Shown one piece after another: positions 4,876 through 31,596 of a stretch of 32,426 nt of DNA (position 1 is the stretch's first letter; each line of letters opens with the position of its first letter). The stretch comes from Candidatus Methylomirabilota bacterium. GTDB lineage: Bacteria; Methylomirabilota; Methylomirabilia; Rokubacteriales; CSP1-6. The DNA is taken from contig DATFVL010000061.1 in the NCBI GenBank assembly GCA_035260325.1, forward strand, positions 1-32,426, in the 5' to 3' direction. Position numbers and translations under genes: made by a program. The notes under the pieces are model-generated. The model saw nothing but the letters and a program-made list of their open reading frames with translations, was not told where the DNA came from and searched no databases.

Positions 4876-6642
4876 CTACTGGAGGTCGACGACCCGGAGG
4901 TTCGTGAAGTAGGCCTCCATGTCCTTCTCGTTCACGTAGAGCCCGAGATAGCCGCGCACGTCGGCGAAGGCCGTGCCCGCGCCGACGTACTTGTCGTTGA
5001 TGTAGCAGAGGATCTTCCGGCCCGAGACCTCGACCGCCAGGTGGTTGGTGGCGCCGTAGCCCGTCCGCACGGCCGCCTCCTTCGTCCAGTCGATGATGTG
5101 GTTCCATTTACCCTGGTGCCACTGCGTGAGCCGGTAGCTGCCGTCGGCGCTGATCCCGAAGACCGCGTAGAGGTCGTTGTTGTCGTTCGAGGCGCGGCCG
5201 AACTTGATCCCGAACATGTGGTTCTGGGCGCCGGCGCGGAGCTGGACCGTCAGCTCGACGCGCACGGAGTCCTGGAACTGGCCGGCGTAGGTGAGCCGCG
5301 GCTCGCAGGTGCCGCTGGCGTTGTTGGACTTGACCCAGTAACCCGAGTCCTCGTACCGCGCGGCGCAGATCTTGTCGGAGCCCACCCACGCCCGGCGCTC
5401 GCCGCGGATGAAGTCGTCCTCGAACAGGGTTCGGCCGCGCCCGCCGGGGATGGAGGCGACGACCGGCGGCGCCGGCGTGGGAAGGGGCTCGTAACGCGTC
5501 TCGATCCCCACGCGGACCGGCTGGATGTCGATCTGCACCTCGCTGCGCGTGTTCGCCGTGACCCGCACGTCGCGCCGCCACTCGGGATGTCCGGCCTTCT
5601 GTGCGCGCACCCGATGCTGACCCTCGACCAGGTTGTTGACGATCAGCTCGCGGCCCGCGTGCGTCTCGCCGACCAGCTGGTCGTCGAGCCACACCTCCAC
5701 GCCCTCGAGGCGGGAGATGAGCGAGAGAGAGCCGACGCGGGCCTTTTCCGTGATCTCCCAGCGCGGCGGCTCATAGACGGGCGGCCCCGTCGGGCGCGGC
5801 GGCGCCGTGGCGACGACGGGTCCGGGAGCGGGGGCGGGCGCGGGGCCGCCCGTGATCGCGAAGAAGAAGTCGCCCGTGAGGTTGCTCGCCTCCCAGGGGT
5901 TCTGACGCCCGCCCGTACGGGTCAGGACGCCCTGGCGGACGCGCTTGAAGACGTCCTCGATCTTGAGGTTCGGCTCGCGCAGCGCCTTGAGGAGCTCCGC
6001 CGTATAGATGCCGTTCGCGCCGGGATCGCCGTCGTCGGCGGTGCTGCCCGGCGCCGTCGCGTACGCGATGTAGGTGCCCATCGGCGCGTCCATGAACGCG
6101 AGGCCGCGGGCGCTGCCCCGGAACTTCCGCGCGAACGGGTTGTCGCGGCACGCGTCGAGGACGATGATGTTGACGCGGTTCTTCGCCTGGTCCATCTGGC
6201 CGAGGACGCTGTCCACGTCCACCGTCTCGGCCGCCACGTACCGCTCGCTGCGGATCTCCGCGTCGATCGGGATCATGAAGTTCTTGCCGGAGACCTGCAT
6301 GCCGTGGCCGGAGTAGTAGAAGAGGCCCGCGCCGAGGCCCGGCCCGCCGCTCCCGAGCTTCTCGCCGAACGCGGCGACGGCCCGGCGGAACTGGGCGGAG
6401 TTGACGTTCTCGAACGCCATCACCTCGAAGCCCATGCGCTTGAGCGCTTGCGTCATCGCGCGCGCGTCGTTGACCGGGTTGTTCAGCTTGCCGGTCGCAT
6501 AGGCGCCGTTGCCGATGACGAGCGCGATTCGCTTCTCGTGCTTCATCTCGTCGACGGTGATGGTGCGGAACTGCTGCGCCGAGGTCGAGGCGACGGCCAG
6601 CAGCACGAGAAGCGCCCCTAGCCAGTAACGCGTCATGCGCAC
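4876..6642 (-). CDS. Secreted caspase-like (peptidase C14) protein with PEGA and lectin-like C-terminal domains
   Basis: The roughly 588-residue product starts with a signal peptide (hydrophobic stretch about 7-19, then ASTSAQ). A caspase-like p20 fold follows at about 37-260: it opens with RIALVIGNGAY, the catalytic histidine is H113 in YYSGHG and the catalytic cysteine is C165 in LDACRDNPF, so the dyad is intact. A proline-rich linker (266-293) leads to a PEGA domain (about 302-376, motif VEVWLDDQLVGET). The last 185 residues resemble a concanavalin/DUF1080-type beta-sandwich (LFEDDF opening, then FGIKFGR and GYLGLYV). GTG at 6642 lies eight bases after a GGAGG; ATG at 6636 is also possible. 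Export, protease and surface-binding domains together suggest a periplasmic or outer-surface orthocaspase-type protein; the target is unknown. Confidence 0.9.
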   Translation of the reverse strand: MRMTRYWLGALLVLLAVASTSAQQFRTITVDEMKHEKRIALVIGNGAYATGKLNNPVNDARAMTQALKRMGFEVMAFENVNSAQFRRAVAAFGEKLGSGGPGLGAGLFYYSGHGMQVSGKNFMIPIDAEIRSERYVAAETVDVDSVLGQMDQAKNRVNIIVLDACRDNPFARKFRGSARGLAFMDAPMGTYIAYATAPGSTADDGDPGANGIYTAELLKALREPNLKIEDVFKRVRQGVLTRTGGRQNPWEASNLTGDFFFAITGGPAPAPAPGPVVATAPPRPTGPPVYEPPRWEITEKARVGSLSLISRLEGVEVWLDDQLVGETHAGRELIVNNLVEGQHRVRAQKAGHPEWRRDVRVTANTRSEVQIDIQPVRVGIETRYEPLPTPAPPVVASIPGGRGRTLFEDDFIRGERRAWVGSDKICAARYEDSGYWVKSNNASGTCEPRLTYAGQFQDSVRVELTVQLRAGAQNHMFGIKFGRASNDNNDLYAVFGISADGSYRLTQWHQGKWNHIIDWTKEAAVRTGYGATNHLAVEVSGRKILCYINDKYVGAGTAFADVRGYLGLYVNEKDMEAYFTNLRVVDLQ

Positions 6643-6689
6643 GGTCAGCCCTCCTCTGTCAGAGACCTGCGAGACCAGAAACCATTGCG

Positions 6690-6718
6690 AGTCTAGCATT
6701 TGTCCACGCGTCAGTGAA
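6690..6718 (-). promoter_or_regulatory. Sigma70-like promoter of the caspase-like gene
   Basis: On the minus strand TTCACT (6718-6713) and TAGACT (6695-6690) are separated by 17 bases. Transcription would begin near 6683 and give a leader of about 40 bases carrying the GGAGG before the GTG at 6642. The -35 matches consensus at four of six positions. Confidence 0.5.
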
Positions 6719-14050: not shown

Positions 14051-14818
14051 GTGCCAGACCCGATCTTCCAGGCCGAGCGCGTGTCGCTCACGTACCCGGA
14101 CGGTGAGGGCCGTCCGCGGGCGCCGGTCCTGGACGACGTGTCGCTGGAGGTGGAGCGCGGCGGCGCGCTCACGCTGGTCGGCCCCTCGGGCTCGGGCAAA
14201 TCCACGCTCCTCCGCTGTCTCAACCGGCTCGTGGAGCCGACGGGCGGGACGGTGCGCTTCGACGGCCGCGACATCCGGTCGCTCGACCCCCGCGACCTTC
14301 GACGCCGAGCCGCGCTGGTGATGCAGACGCCCGTGCTCTTCGAGGGCACGGTCGGGGACAATCTCCGCATCCGACCCGCCGACGCCCCGGGCGATTTCTC
14401 CGAGGCGCGGCTGGCGGCCGCGCTCGCCGAGGTGGGCCTCGACCCGGACTTCCTCGACCGCGACGCCGCCACCCTGTCCGGCGGTGAGAAGCAGCGGGTG
14501 ACGATCGCCCGGGCGCTCCTGCGCGACCCGCAGGCCCTCCTGCTCGATGAGCCCACCTCGGCGCTGGACCCGCCCAACGCGGCGCTGGTCGTCGAGACGA
14601 TCTCCCGGCTGCGGGAGACGCGCGGCCTCTCCATCGTCGCCGTGACGCATCAGCCGGAGCTCGTCCGCCGTCTCGGCGGCCGGCTGCTCTACCTCGTGAA
14701 GGGGCGGGCGCAGGCGTACGAGCGCATCGACGCCGCCGCGTCCGGCGCCGTCACCGATGCGCGGCTGCAGGCGTTCCTGGCCGGCGAACGCGCGCCCGCC
14801 GGCCCCGGCGGCGCATGA
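14051..14818 (+). CDS. fetA: ABC transporter ATP-binding protein, FetA/YbbL-like
   Basis: The 255-residue ATPase has Walker A GPSGSGKST (44-52), a Q-loop (VMQTP), the signature LSGGE (142-146), Walker B LLLDEP (163-168) and the H-loop in AVTHQ. It is encoded directly before a FetB/YbbM-type permease and the stop and start overlap (ATGA at 14815-14818), which fixes the pairing. In Escherichia coli FetAB is linked to iron export under oxidative stress; in other bacteria homologues are annotated as metal or phosphate-like transporters. Export of iron or another metal is therefore an inference. The C-terminal tail after VKGRAQAYE is Ala/Gly-rich and less conserved. Confidence 0.85.
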   Translation: MPDPIFQAERVSLTYPDGEGRPRAPVLDDVSLEVERGGALTLVGPSGSGKSTLLRCLNRLVEPTGGTVRFDGRDIRSLDPRDLRRRAALVMQTPVLFEGTVGDNLRIRPADAPGDFSEARLAAALAEVGLDPDFLDRDAATLSGGEKQRVTIARALLRDPQALLLDEPTSALDPPNAALVVETISRLRETRGLSIVAVTHQPELVRRLGGRLLYLVKGRAQAYERIDAAASGAVTDARLQAFLAGERAPAGPGGA

Positions 14819-15654: not shown

Positions 15655-16710
15655 ATGTCACTGGCCGATCCCGAGCTCACCGCCGACGCGATCGAGGAGC
15701 TGTACGCGCGCGGCGTGACCGACGGCCTGCCGGTGGTCCCACCGACGCGCGCGCGCGTCGCGCGCGCGGTCGCGGCGACGGGACGCGACGGCGCGGAGCT
15801 CGTCGCGGAGGTCCCGCCCAACTATGGGCGCGCGACCGTGGAGAAGGTCGCGATCAACGCGGTGATGGCGGGGTGCCGTCCCGAGTACCTGCCGGTCGTC
15901 CTCGCCGCCGTCGAGGCCGTCTGCGACGACGCGTTCGACCTCCACGGGGTCTCGGCGACGACCAATGCCCCCGCGCCGCTCGTGATCGTCAACGGCCCGA
16001 TCCGCGGCAAGCTCGAGATCAACTGCGGCGCCGGCCTCTTCGGCCCCGGCTGGCGCGCCAACGCGACGATCGGCCGCGCCGTGCGCCTCGTCTGCGTCAA
16101 CGTGGGCGGCGCGATCCCGGGTGTCGTCAGCATGTCCACGTTCGCCCACCCGGGCCGCTACACCTACTGCATCGGCGAGCACGAGGAGGCGAGCCCGTGG
16201 GAGCCGCTCGCCGTGGAGCACGGCTTCGCCGCGGGCGAGTCGACCGTGGCCGTCCTCGCGGCCGACGCGCCGCTCGGTGTCTACGATCAGCGGTCGCGCA
16301 CGCCCGAGGACCTCCTGGCGACGCTCGCGGCGAGCCTGGCCGTGGTCGCGCACCACAAGATGACCCACTGGGGCGACACGCTGCTCGTCCTCTCGCCCGA
16401 GCACGCGGCGCTCGTCGGCGGCGCCGGCTGGACGAAGACCGACGTGCGCCGCTGGCTCTGGAAGCGTTTGCATCGCCCGGTCAGCGACCTGCTCCCGGGC
16501 AGGGACGGCGGCGACGGGCTCCCCGAGCACGTGCTGAAGAAGTTCAAGGACCCCGCGCACGACGACACGCCGATCGCGAAGTTCCGCGAGCCCGAGAACA
16601 TCAAGATCATGGTGGCGGGCGGCACGGCCGGGCGCTTCTCGGCGATCGTCCCGGGCTGGACGTTCTCCAAGGGCTCGGCGCTCGTCTTCCGCCCCATCCG
16701 CAGCGCGTGA
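15655..16710 (+). CDS. Uncharacterised protein encoded directly before the UGSC selenoprotein
   Basis: The 351-residue, apparently cytoplasmic protein has no signal peptide and no membrane segment. I do not recognise a characterised family. Conserved-looking blocks are TDGLPVVPPTRARV (21-34), PPNYGRATVEKVAINAVMAGC (read in parts), NGPIRGKLEINCGAG with a cysteine, and a Gly-rich NVGGAIPG. Cysteines lie in MAGCRPEY, EAVCDD, EINCGAG, VCVNVGG and TYCIGEHEE, so a thiol role is possible. It stops 13 bases before the selenoprotein start, with a strong ribosome binding site between them, so the two are almost certainly co-expressed. I infer that this is the catalytic or substrate-binding partner of the selenoprotein; nothing proves the reaction. 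Confidence 0.8.
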   Translation: MSLADPELTADAIEELYARGVTDGLPVVPPTRARVARAVAATGRDGAELVAEVPPNYGRATVEKVAINAVMAGCRPEYLPVVLAAVEAVCDDAFDLHGVSATTNAPAPLVIVNGPIRGKLEINCGAGLFGPGWRANATIGRAVRLVCVNVGGAIPGVVSMSTFAHPGRYTYCIGEHEEASPWEPLAVEHGFAAGESTVAVLAADAPLGVYDQRSRTPEDLLATLAASLAVVAHHKMTHWGDTLLVLSPEHAALVGGAGWTKTDVRRWLWKRLHRPVSDLLPGRDGGDGLPEHVLKKFKDPAHDDTPIAKFREPENIKIMVAGGTAGRFSAIVPGWTFSKGSALVFRPIRSA

Positions 16711-16723
16711 AAGGAGAAAGCAC

Positions 16724-17242
16724 ATGAGCGAGTACCTGGACCCGACCGCCTCCGTCGCCGTCCCGCGGAAGACCGCGGCGCGGCCCGCGAGCCTCGAGGG
16801 CAAGACGATCACGCTCCTCGACATCTCGAAGGCGAAGGGCGATCACCTCCTCGACCGGATCGAGGAGCTCCTGCGCGAGCGCGCCCGGCCGAAGGCCATC
16901 GTGCGGAAGAAGAAGCCCACGTTCGCGCGCCCGGCCCCGGACGAGCTGCGCCGCGACATCGTCGGCGCGACCGACGTCCTGATCGAGGCGCTCGCCGACT
17001 GAGGGTCGTGCACAACGTGCAGTGTGCACGACGGCGTGTTCTTCGAGGATCACGGCATCCCGACGGCGACGGTCGTCTCGTCCGAGTTCGTCCGCGCGGC
17101 GCGCGCCCAGGCCGGCGCGCTCGGCGCCACGGACTACCGGACCGTCGCCGTCCCTCACCCAGTCCAAACACTGACCCGCGATGAGGTCCGGGCGCTGGCC
17201 GACAAGGCGTTCGACGAGATCGTGAGGAGGCTCACGGCGTGA
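16724..17242 (+). CDS. UGSC-family selenoprotein with in-frame TGA decoded as selenocysteine
   Basis: From ATG 16724 (AAAGGAG eight bases upstream) the frame reads 92 residues to TGA at 17000-17002 and continues in the same frame for 79 more codons to TGA 17240-17242. Reading the first TGA as Sec gives a 172-residue protein with U93-G94-S95-C96, then TTCSVHDGVFFE with C99 and HGIPTATVVSSEFV. This matches the UGSC family, in which Sec or Cys occupies the first position. Protein-like sequence on both sides, the Sec-x-x-Cys redox spacing, and the hairpins right after the TGA all support recoding. The stop overlaps the GTG start of the amidase gene. Sec synthesis genes (selA, B, C, D) must lie outside the window. 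Likely a small redox protein; substrate unknown. Confidence 0.9.
17005..17032 (+). promoter_or_regulatory. Bacterial SECIS candidate downstream of the Sec codon
   Basis: Two overlapping hairpins follow the TGA at 17000-17002. A perfect 10-base-pair stem pairs 17005-17014 with 17023-17032 around loop ACGTGCAG. An alternative 6-base-pair stem pairs CGTGCA (17016-17021) with TGCACG (17025-17030) around loop GTG. The second places a G-containing loop 19 bases after the TGA and its stem about a dozen bases after it, which resembles the SelB-binding stem-loop of Escherichia coli fdhF. The two are mutually exclusive. Confidence 0.7.
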
Positions 17243-18144: not shown

Positions 18145-19089
18145 ATGGCGACGACGCTCGGCGACGACGACGTGGTCAAGATGCTCTCCTCGCTCAGCAA
18201 CTGGGGGCGCTGGGGCAAGGACGACGAGCTCGGGACGATCAACCTCATCACGCCGGCCAAGCGCAAGCAGGCCGCGGCGCTCGTGCGGGACGGCGTCCCG
18301 GTGAGCTGCGCGCGTCCGATCGTGACGAACGACATCAGCGTGGACACGGCGTTCCAGCCGCTCCGGCTCATGGTGGACTCGGGCGAGGGGCGTGACCACG
18401 ACTCGCGCGAGCGGCTCCTGGCGCGCCGCGGCGCCTCGGAGTTCATCGGAATGGTCTTCCACGGCTACACGATCACGCACGTGGACACGCCCGCGCACTA
18501 CTTCTGGCAGGGGAAGATCTACAACGGCCGCTCCTGCAACCTCATCACCGCGCGCGAGGGCGCCGGCGCCGAGTCGGTGGACCTGCTCCACGACGGCGTG
18601 GTGAGCCGGGGCGTGCTGCTCGACGTCGCGGCGCTCCGGGGACGCCCGCTCGACGCGGGCGAGGGCGTGATGCCCGAGGACCTCGAGGCGGCGGAGAAGG
18701 CCCAGCAGGTCCGCGTCGAGCCGGGCGACATCCTCCTGATCCGGACGGGCTACTACGCCCGGCGGCTCGAGACGCCGCGCCACCCGCTGAAGGACGGCTC
18801 GCCCGCCGCCCACGTCGCCTCGATGCCGTGGTTCCGCGAGCGCGACATCGCCATGCTCGGCACCGACACCCACAACGACGTGAGCCCCGCGACCCACCCG
18901 CGGCTTGGCAACGTGGTCCACATCGTGGCGCTCGTGGGCATGGGCCTCTGGCTCATCGACAACGGGAACCTCGAGGAGCTCGCGAAGGCGTGCGCGGCGC
19001 GGCGGCGCTGGGAGTTCATGCTGACGCTCGCGCCGCTCAGGCTCCAGCACGCGACGGGCTCCCCCGTGAACCCGATCGCGCTCTTCTAG
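18145..19089 (+). CDS. Cyclase-family metal-dependent hydrolase (kynurenine formamidase fold)
   Basis: The 314-residue protein carries the cyclase-family (PF04199) metal motif HVDTPAH (112-118) and a Trp/Gly-rich N-terminal NWGRWGKDDELGTIN typical of the long members. A later GTDTHND-like segment supplies more candidate ligands. Relatives include kynurenine formamidase (KynB), isatin hydrolase and polyketide cyclase-like enzymes, which hydrolyse amide or lactam bonds with a Mn or Zn ion. The start at 18145 is three bases after the amidase stop, so the two hydrolases are co-translated. Together they suggest stepwise cleavage of an amide or formyl-amide compound; this is inference. No signal peptide. 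Confidence 0.88.
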   Translation: MATTLGDDDVVKMLSSLSNWGRWGKDDELGTINLITPAKRKQAAALVRDGVPVSCARPIVTNDISVDTAFQPLRLMVDSGEGRDHDSRERLLARRGASEFIGMVFHGYTITHVDTPAHYFWQGKIYNGRSCNLITAREGAGAESVDLLHDGVVSRGVLLDVAALRGRPLDAGEGVMPEDLEAAEKAQQVRVEPGDILLIRTGYYARRLETPRHPLKDGSPAAHVASMPWFRERDIAMLGTDTHNDVSPATHPRLGNVVHIVALVGMGLWLIDNGNLEELAKACAARRRWEFMLTLAPLRLQHATGSPVNPIALF

Positions 19090-30669: not shown

Positions 30670-30682
30670 CCGACGTCGCTGT

Positions 30683-30697
30683 TGATAATGATTACTA
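30683..30697 (+). promoter_or_regulatory. PerR/Fur-type operator over the start codon
   Basis: The 15-mer TGATAATGATTACTA matches the PerR box TTATAATNATTATAA at 11 of 14 defined positions, and also resembles part of the Fur box. It covers the likely transcript start region and the ATG at 30688. In such GC-rich DNA an AT-rich dyad at this place is conspicuous. It suggests repression of the unit by its own first gene product. Confidence 0.6.
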
Positions 30698-31143
30698 ACT
30701 ACGAGACCCACGCCACGCTGCGCGCGCGGGGGCTGCGGCCGACGAAGCCCCGGCGCCTGATCCTCGAGGCCGTGCGCGCGACCGACGTCCACCCGACGGC
30801 GGCCTTCGTCTACCGCCGCGTGCGGAAGCGGCTCCCGCGCGTGAGCCTCGCGACCGTCTACCGCAACCTCCGCGTGCTGGCCGCCGAGGGCTTCCTGGCC
30901 GAGCGCGCGGACGCGGCGGGGCTGCGCTTCGACGGCAACACGGCGCCCCACGACCACTTCACCTGCCTCGCGTGCGGCCGGATCTACGACGTCCCGGCGC
31001 GCCGCGGGCGGGCCGCGCGCGCGCGGATGGCGGCGCACACCGGCTTCGAGATCCTGAACCACCGCACAGAGTACTTCGGCCGCTGCGGCGACTGTCGCCG
31101 GCACGGCGGCCGGACGTCCCCGAAAGCAAAAAGGAGGAGCTGA
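30688..31143 (+). CDS. perR: Fur-family regulator, probably PerR-type peroxide sensor
   Basis: The 151-residue protein has the Fur winged helix (RGLRPTKPRRLILEAV; recognition helix SLATVYRNL at 53-61), the metal-sensing HDHF (88-91), and two CxxC zinc pairs: C93/C96 and C133/C136. A PerR role rather than Fur or Zur is inferred from the next gene, a rubrerythrin for peroxide detoxification, and from the PerR-like box over its own start. ATG 30688 was chosen; a TTG at 30682 is in frame but the ATG agrees with the promoter spacing. The rubrerythrin starts four bases after the stop. Confidence 0.85.
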   Translation: MITNYETHATLRARGLRPTKPRRLILEAVRATDVHPTAAFVYRRVRKRLPRVSLATVYRNLRVLAAEGFLAERADAAGLRFDGNTAPHDHFTCLACGRIYDVPARRGRAARARMAAHTGFEILNHRTEYFGRCGDCRRHGGRTSPKAKRRS

Positions 31144-31146
31144 GTC

Positions 31147-31596
31147 ATGGCAGGCAAGAGCCTCAAGGGCACCAAGAGCCACGCAAACCTGAAGGAAGCG
31201 TTCGCCGGCGAGTCGCAGGCGAATCGCCGCTACCTCTACTTCGCGCGCGTCGCGGACATCGAGGGGTTTCCCGACATGGCGGGCCTCTTCAAGGACACCG
31301 CGGACGCCGAGACCGGTCACGCCTTCGGCCACCTCGACTTCCTGAAAGAGGTCGGCGATCCGGTGACCGACGAGCCGATCGGCAAGACCGAGAAGAACCT
31401 CAAGTCCGCGGTCACCGGCGAGACGTACGAGTACACGCAGATGTACCCGGGCATGGCCAAGACCGCGCGTGACGAGGGCTTCCCGGAGCTCGGCGAGTGG
31501 TTCGAGACGCTCTCGAAGGCCGAGAAGTCGCACGCGGGGCGGTTCAACAAGGGGCTCAAGCAGATCGCGGGCAAGGAGCCGGCTGAGGCCATCTAG
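31147..31596 (+). CDS. Rubrerythrin without rubredoxin domain
   Basis: The 149-residue protein is a ferritin-like di-iron four-helix protein. Expected iron ligands are E22 (FAGES), E55/H58 (AETGHA), E92 and/or E95 (GETYEY) and E126/H129 (AEKSHAGRF). The C-terminal rubredoxin domain of classical rubrerythrin, with its CxxC pairs, is absent, so electrons must come from another donor. Family function: reduction of hydrogen peroxide, common in anaerobes and microaerophiles. An AGGAGG ribosome binding site precedes ATG 31147. It shares a promoter with the Fur-family gene. The Fe-S protein downstream could be linked to its electron supply, but that is speculation. Confidence 0.93.

Follow-up and report, generated by a model that had tools for sequence, protein, structure and literature searches.

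A UGSC-Family Selenoprotein and Its Partner Protein in Rokubacteria: Candidate Subunits of a Thioredoxin-Linked Reductase

The UGSC-containing protein has been recognized as a selenoprotein family since the 2008 GOS study, being abundant and functionally unassigned (PMC2398784, PMC13188914), and a 2026 review still assigns it no function (PMC13188914). In aquatic metagenomes few selenoprotein families are as abundant, yet none of the work since 2008 has given it a function. The described systems to which it can be most closely compared are the selenoproteins GrdB and PrdB (PF07355, TIGR04483) of glycine and D-proline reductase. For proline reductase, the proposal is that the selenocysteine (Sec) of PrdB attacks the substrate and that a cysteine then resolves the resultant selenoether to a Se-S bond (PMC3091704); the clostridial grd operons also encode a trxA/trxB pair (PMC10880999). 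Large selenoproteomes are on record in the phylum Methylomirabilota: PMC13188914 cites a MAG for which 63 selenoprotein genes are predicted.

We analyzed a 32,426-nucleotide contig (C61, the “window”) from a Rokubacterial genome of 3.77 Mb in 317 contigs, the host of which is a soil or groundwater bacterium. The gene of interest (16724–17242, + strand) had been predicted, from the letters alone, to be a UGSC-family selenoprotein gene hidden by an in-frame TGA. With TGA read as Sec (U), translation from an ATG start to a terminal TGA gives 172 residues, of which residue 93 alone is U (encoded by TGA at 17000–17002, in the motif U-G-S-C). The frame is broken by this TGA alone and runs on in the same register to the stop codon at 17240–17242. 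As also predicted, there is an overlap with the next gene, which begins with GTG at 17239; it amounts to four bases. The predicted protein matches PF24696 (UGSC family; 180.3 bits against a cut-off of 25, E 4.8e-53, 2–171/172) and NF041046 (“UGSC family (seleno)protein”; 165.5 bits against a cut-off of 125, 1–147/147). Both cut-offs are thus passed end to end, the alignment with homologues spans the TGA and the whole length of the protein, and the protein carries Sec in the [UC]-G-S-C position that defines the family. Since the family was described in 2008, the gene adds a member to an established family and is not a new kind of selenoprotein, and the gene itself shows no difference from the family as modelled by the two profiles. 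One detail of the original prediction needs qualifying: it noted a second cysteine after Sec-Gly-Ser-Cys, and whereas Cys96 is invariant, Cys99 is replaced by Ser, Trp, or Gly in the paralogues. The invariant residues are Lys64, Sec93, Cys96, Phe122, and Pro146, with Lys36, Asp92, and Asp103 nearly invariant.

A standard gene caller breaks the frame at the TGA, as had been foreseen, giving here an ORF of 92 residues (16724–17002) and a false short ORF (17024–17242, + strand) from a GTG that overlaps the loop of the hairpin described below; the same splitting is seen in the public records of Acidovorax sp. T1 and Paracoccus ferrooxidans. This behavior is the sole point in favor of the reading in which the TGA is an assembly error or else a genuine stop, the locus then being a pseudogene or two short genes. 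Against that reading, the TGA is retained in dozens of independent assemblies, which also disposes of a sequencing error in a TGC or TGT codon, and in all five UGSC paralogues of the same genome, each of which has exactly one in-frame TGA. Coding composition, moreover, runs on past it: in a scan of both strands of the 32-kb window using GC3 in the 60 codons to each side, just two TGAs (17000–17002 and 18139) had coding-like composition (high GC3) on both sides, which places the former beyond chance; the latter is the normal stop codon separating the two genes that follow, whose frames happen to coincide. Across the phylum, UGSC is present in 72 of 95 genomes, with up to 12 copies per genome (2 to 12 in the host's own family within the Rokubacteria), and all of the UGSC matches listed have exactly one in-frame TGA.

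Homologues with cysteine at residue 93 exist, as anticipated, with TGC or TGT at the Sec codon in haloarchaeal, Arthrobacter, Roseovarius, Variovorax, Neorhizobium, and other plasmid copies (loci L127, L128, L130, L131, L133, and L152 are included). The Sec machinery sought in the genome was also found: a selC tRNA-Sec above the Rfam cut-off with a TCA anticodon, selA (587 bits), and selD (288 bits), together with a separate Sec-type N-terminal selD piece with an in-frame TGA on another contig; selB, adjoining selA, is represented by its first 162 residues, running into the contig end. Rfam and tRNA scans of the window itself returned no matches.

The window contains a bacterial SECIS hairpin (17013–17033, + strand), identified by covariation, by its loss in Cys forms, and by its fit to the published bSECIS constraints (PMC13188914). 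A six-base-pair stem (17016–17021 with 17025–17030) encloses a GUG loop (17022–17024) located 19 nt after the UGA; here those six inner pairs are intact, and the two beyond them are mismatched. When 33 distinct stretches following the TGA were aligned without gaps, the supported stem paired columns 14–22 with 26–34 around a three-base loop starting with G. Pairing holds in 90.2% of the cells of this stem, and double changes are seen at four pairs, including U-A to G-U in 12 sequences and C-G to G-C in 4. The covariation score was reached by none of 500 shuffles and is lost on sliding the partner strand. Sec copies have an uninterrupted stem with a mean of 7.3 bp and a minimum of 4, whereas in 12 of the 13 Cys copies, counting outward from the loop, no more than a single pair remains (Mann-Whitney p 8e-7, a value to be taken as indicative only, the sequences being related). 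The folding energy of the hairpin is not unusual for a GC-rich sequence (z −0.79). A conspicuous 10-bp palindrome at 17005–17032 was also considered as the SECIS; it lacks conservation and covaries no more than shuffles do, so the shorter covarying stem is preferred. The covarying hairpin, the Cys homologues, and the Sec machinery all contradict a real stop or an assembly error, a reading which is very improbable and, on present evidence, refuted. That 16724–17242 encodes a true UGSC-family selenoprotein, taken on its own, is close to certain.

When the UGSC profile was compared (hhalign) with GrdB-type proteins of the host's phylum, it matched their C-terminal Sec domain at 95% probability (E 2e-8), with Sec aligned on Sec over ∼90 columns that extend through the following helix and a G-[IL]-P motif to a C-terminal H-P segment. 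With the Sec motif masked the match remained at 64% (E 6e-5); of 30 column shuffles the best reached 0.4%, and the reversed alignment reached 0.6%. By these comparisons UGSC is a remote relative of the GrdB/PrdB Sec domain. The two groups are alike in their UxxC Sec motif followed by a helix, in the subsequent G-[IL]-P-[TV], in the C-terminal H-P segment, and in having a thioredoxin system encoded alongside in some lineages. UGSC differs from GrdB in being shorter and in lacking the GrdB N-terminal part, and UGSC gave no match to PF07355 at E ≤ 10. It also differs from GrdB/PrdB in occurring in haloarchaea and other organisms outside the clostridia.

An AlphaFold2 (AF2) model of UGSC (pLDDT 93.7) has a five-strand alternating β/α fold, in which Sec93 follows strand three at the start of a helix (94–109); several of the conserved residues, in loops after strands, would, judging by the topology, sit near Sec in this model. 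The model bears on a second reading, namely that the selenoprotein is a stand-alone thiol oxidoreductase or peroxidase with a thioredoxin-like fold and that its neighbor PART (below) is merely a frequent operon mate. The UxxC motif is consistent with such a role, a thioredoxin-like fold was suggested in the 2008 GOS paper (PMC2398784), and peroxidase activity of GrdB has been reported, according to the title of a reference in PMC3091704. However, a search of PDB folds with the model returned no thioredoxin among the best 50 matches and no convincing relative; a thioredoxin fold for UGSC is not supported. The near-obligate presence and repeated fusion of PART likewise argue against a stand-alone enzyme, which we consider unlikely.

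The gene immediately upstream (15655–16710, + strand) encodes a protein of 351 residues with the motif TDGLPVVPPT, here termed PART, which is adjacent or fused to UGSC in most loci; both this partner and the GrdB/PrdB kinship were missed by the original prediction. PART proteins are ∼330–350 residues long, and PART and 18 diverse relatives had no match among Pfam and NCBIfam models. Among the fetched loci, some of which overlap, PART lies in the same locus as 81 of 87 UGSC matches, on either side; three of the six UGSC matches without PART are in loci that end early. All five UGSC paralogues of the host genome have PART beside them, again on either side. A sixth PART paralogue of this genome (L134:2508–3677, G000:C126) has no UGSC beside it. 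PART occurs in 70 of the 71 UGSC-bearing genomes of the phylum: in the 94 genomes searched for both families, 70 have both, 23 neither, and one UGSC only. The patchy distribution within genus g29 is matched, with both families in G010, G011, and G014 and neither in G008, G009, G012, and G013. On plasmids, from haloarchaea to Variovorax, 18 of 19 fetched PART loci hold UGSC. The two families also co-evolve, the distances among UGSC sequences mirroring those among their PART neighbors (r 0.82 over 26 loci, equalled in 0 of 5000 permutations).

The two proteins are also found fused. In Acidovorax sp. T1 a UGSC-PART fusion forms one 526-codon frame broken by the Sec TGA alone, and a single annotated CDS spans UGSC and PART in Vibrio, Sporomusa, and Variovorax boronicumulans. 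The UGSC/Unknown_1 fusion of the GOS data, described in PMC2398784 as UGSC with a conserved unknown domain, is probably an arrangement of the Acidovorax type, in which Unknown_1 may correspond to PART. Linkage, co-occurrence, fusion, and mirrored distances constitute strong computational evidence that UGSC and PART are a functional pair.

Several of these plasmid loci have features of their own. The Acidovorax sp. T1 fusion (plasmid p2-T1, NZ_CP021650.1, L129:4923–6500) is annotated as a 291-bp “hypothetical protein”, with no gene listed for the remainder. On pFER4 of Paracoccus ferrooxidans (L153:3881–4450) the Sec-UGSC is annotated as two short hypothetical proteins, and selB lies ∼4 kb downstream on the same plasmid. 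In the haloarchaeal plasmid loci L131 and L152, UGSC is flanked by two different PART genes, one per side, which suggests a heteromeric complex. In fusions on plasmids of Vibrio europaeus (L156:3835–5520) and Sporomusa termitida (L157:3814–5538), methionine replaces Sec/Cys (DMGTS), and these fusions lie near genes for aconitase X and DUF126. Some members therefore cannot use Sec/Cys chemistry, and the Met-type fusions are possibly a non-redox branch of the same fold.

A third reading makes UGSC a full member of the Grd/Prd system, with PART a diverged GrdE/PrdA carrying a pyruvoyl group; the distant match to the GrdB-type Sec domain, in which the two Sec residues coincide, and the trxB/trxA neighbors in plasmid loci are in keeping with this. 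However, comparisons of PART with the GrdE profile and with the GrdB N-terminal region were both at noise level, and we reject PART as either. The host genome contains no match to PF09338 (GrdE), UGSC itself does not match PF07355, and in other Rokubacteria genuine GrdE and GrdB homologues occur next to each other, apart from UGSC-PART. Nor did structure suggest kinship: for the PART model (pLDDT 88.5) the best PDB match, a two-subunit fumarate hydratase (E 3e-3, TM 0.25–0.29), is not meaningful and is rejected as a relative, and neither the PART nor the UGSC sequence matched any in the PDB. PART has neither GrdE/GrdB similarity nor a structural relative, so nothing points to a pyruvoyl group for binding the substrate. 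Thus, unlike GrdB/PrdB, UGSC has a partner that is not GrdE-like, and we do not file it under Grd/Prd, because PF07355 and a GrdE partner were both looked for and neither was found. Full membership of the Grd/Prd system seems to us improbable, more so than a stand-alone oxidoreductase.

Although they are not clostridia, many Rokubacteria (loci L102–L120 and L137–L151) have a GrdE-like gene next to a GrdB-like one, the latter with an in-frame TGA (UGTxTRCGA). The host genome has its own GrdB-like Sec candidate (L135:3108–4019, G000:C123), found via weak PF07355 matches, with an in-frame TGA in LVPSUPVCHQTVSL; short Sec proteins similar to it occur across the phylum.

A link to thioredoxin comes from gene order. 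In Arthrobacter sp. ERGS1:01 the order is trxB-trxA-PART-UGSC, in Roseovarius trxB follows UGSC, and Variovorax sp. SRS16 has trxB 2 kb upstream; in all, a TrxB-like protein (E ≤ 1e-20) is encoded near 7 of 19 plasmid loci. A search for nearby TrxB-like genes in 49 loci from Rokubacteria, proteobacteria, and Hydrogenedentota found none, so the thioredoxin link comes from the plasmid loci. The TrxB-linked plasmid copies of UGSC carry cysteine.

Taken together, we favor, with a probability of roughly 60%, the reading that the Sec-decoded UGSC and PART form a two-protein, thioredoxin-linked reductase resembling proline and glycine reductase. By analogy with those enzymes, UGSC would most likely be the catalytic, selenium-bearing subunit and PART the other subunit. 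UGA 17000–17002 would be decoded by SelB and tRNA-Sec, aided by the hairpin just downstream. PART may bind the substrate or act as a scaffold within what we infer to be a physical complex with reductase activity. In the redox cycle envisaged, the Sec93 selenolate would act as a nucleophile to attack or reduce the bound substrate, the invariant Cys96 would resolve the Sec93 intermediate to a Se-S bond, and a thioredoxin/thioredoxin reductase couple would re-reduce that bond.

The partner, the relation to GrdB/PrdB, and the nearby trxB of some lineages turn an unknown selenoprotein into a testable two-subunit reductase, and the Cys form, present in culturable Arthrobacter, Roseovarius, Variovorax, and haloarchaea, is accessible without Sec machinery. 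In broader terms, UGSC and PART may represent a widespread, undescribed class of two-subunit, thioredoxin-linked selenoenzymes, with Cys versions in archaea and actinobacteria, with only the Sec domain in common with glycine/proline reductase, and with Rokubacterial paralogous pairs possibly serving different substrates; we regard the chances of this wider proposal as evenly balanced. As far as the accessible literature shows, the partner family, the GrdB kinship, and the proximity to TrxB are undescribed, although a study of selenoprotein neighborhoods (Haft & Tolstoy 2025, mSystems) may overlap. Public annotation still splits UGSC selenoprotein genes and labels the partner a “hypothetical protein”.

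The genes flanking the pair hint at a substrate. Downstream are genes for an acetamidase/formamidase-like protein (PF03069; 17239–18141, + strand), the start of which is the one overlapping the UGSC stop, and a “putative cyclase” (PF04199, metal-dependent amide hydrolase type; 18145–19089, + strand), each present in part of the orthologous loci only. Upstream of the PART gene are an ABC transporter ATPase (14051–14818, + strand), the position of which is not conserved, and a UPF0014/FetB-like permease assigned by profile matches (PF03649; 14815–15609, + strand). The ABC transporter, amidase, and cyclase vary between orthologous loci and are rejected as fixed parts of the system. Neighbors at other loci include TRAP/tricarboxylate transporters, CoA transferases, CoA ester lyases, PEP-mutase/isocitrate-lyase relatives, and amidohydrolases. 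These neighbors, variable as they are between loci, suggest a small organic acid or amide as the substrate, which may differ between UGSC paralogues. Elsewhere in the window, a caspase-domain (PF00656) protein with a PEGA domain is encoded at 4876–6699 (− strand), and a Fur-family regulator directly followed by a rubrerythrin, recalling a peroxide-response pair, is encoded at 30682–31596 (+ strand).
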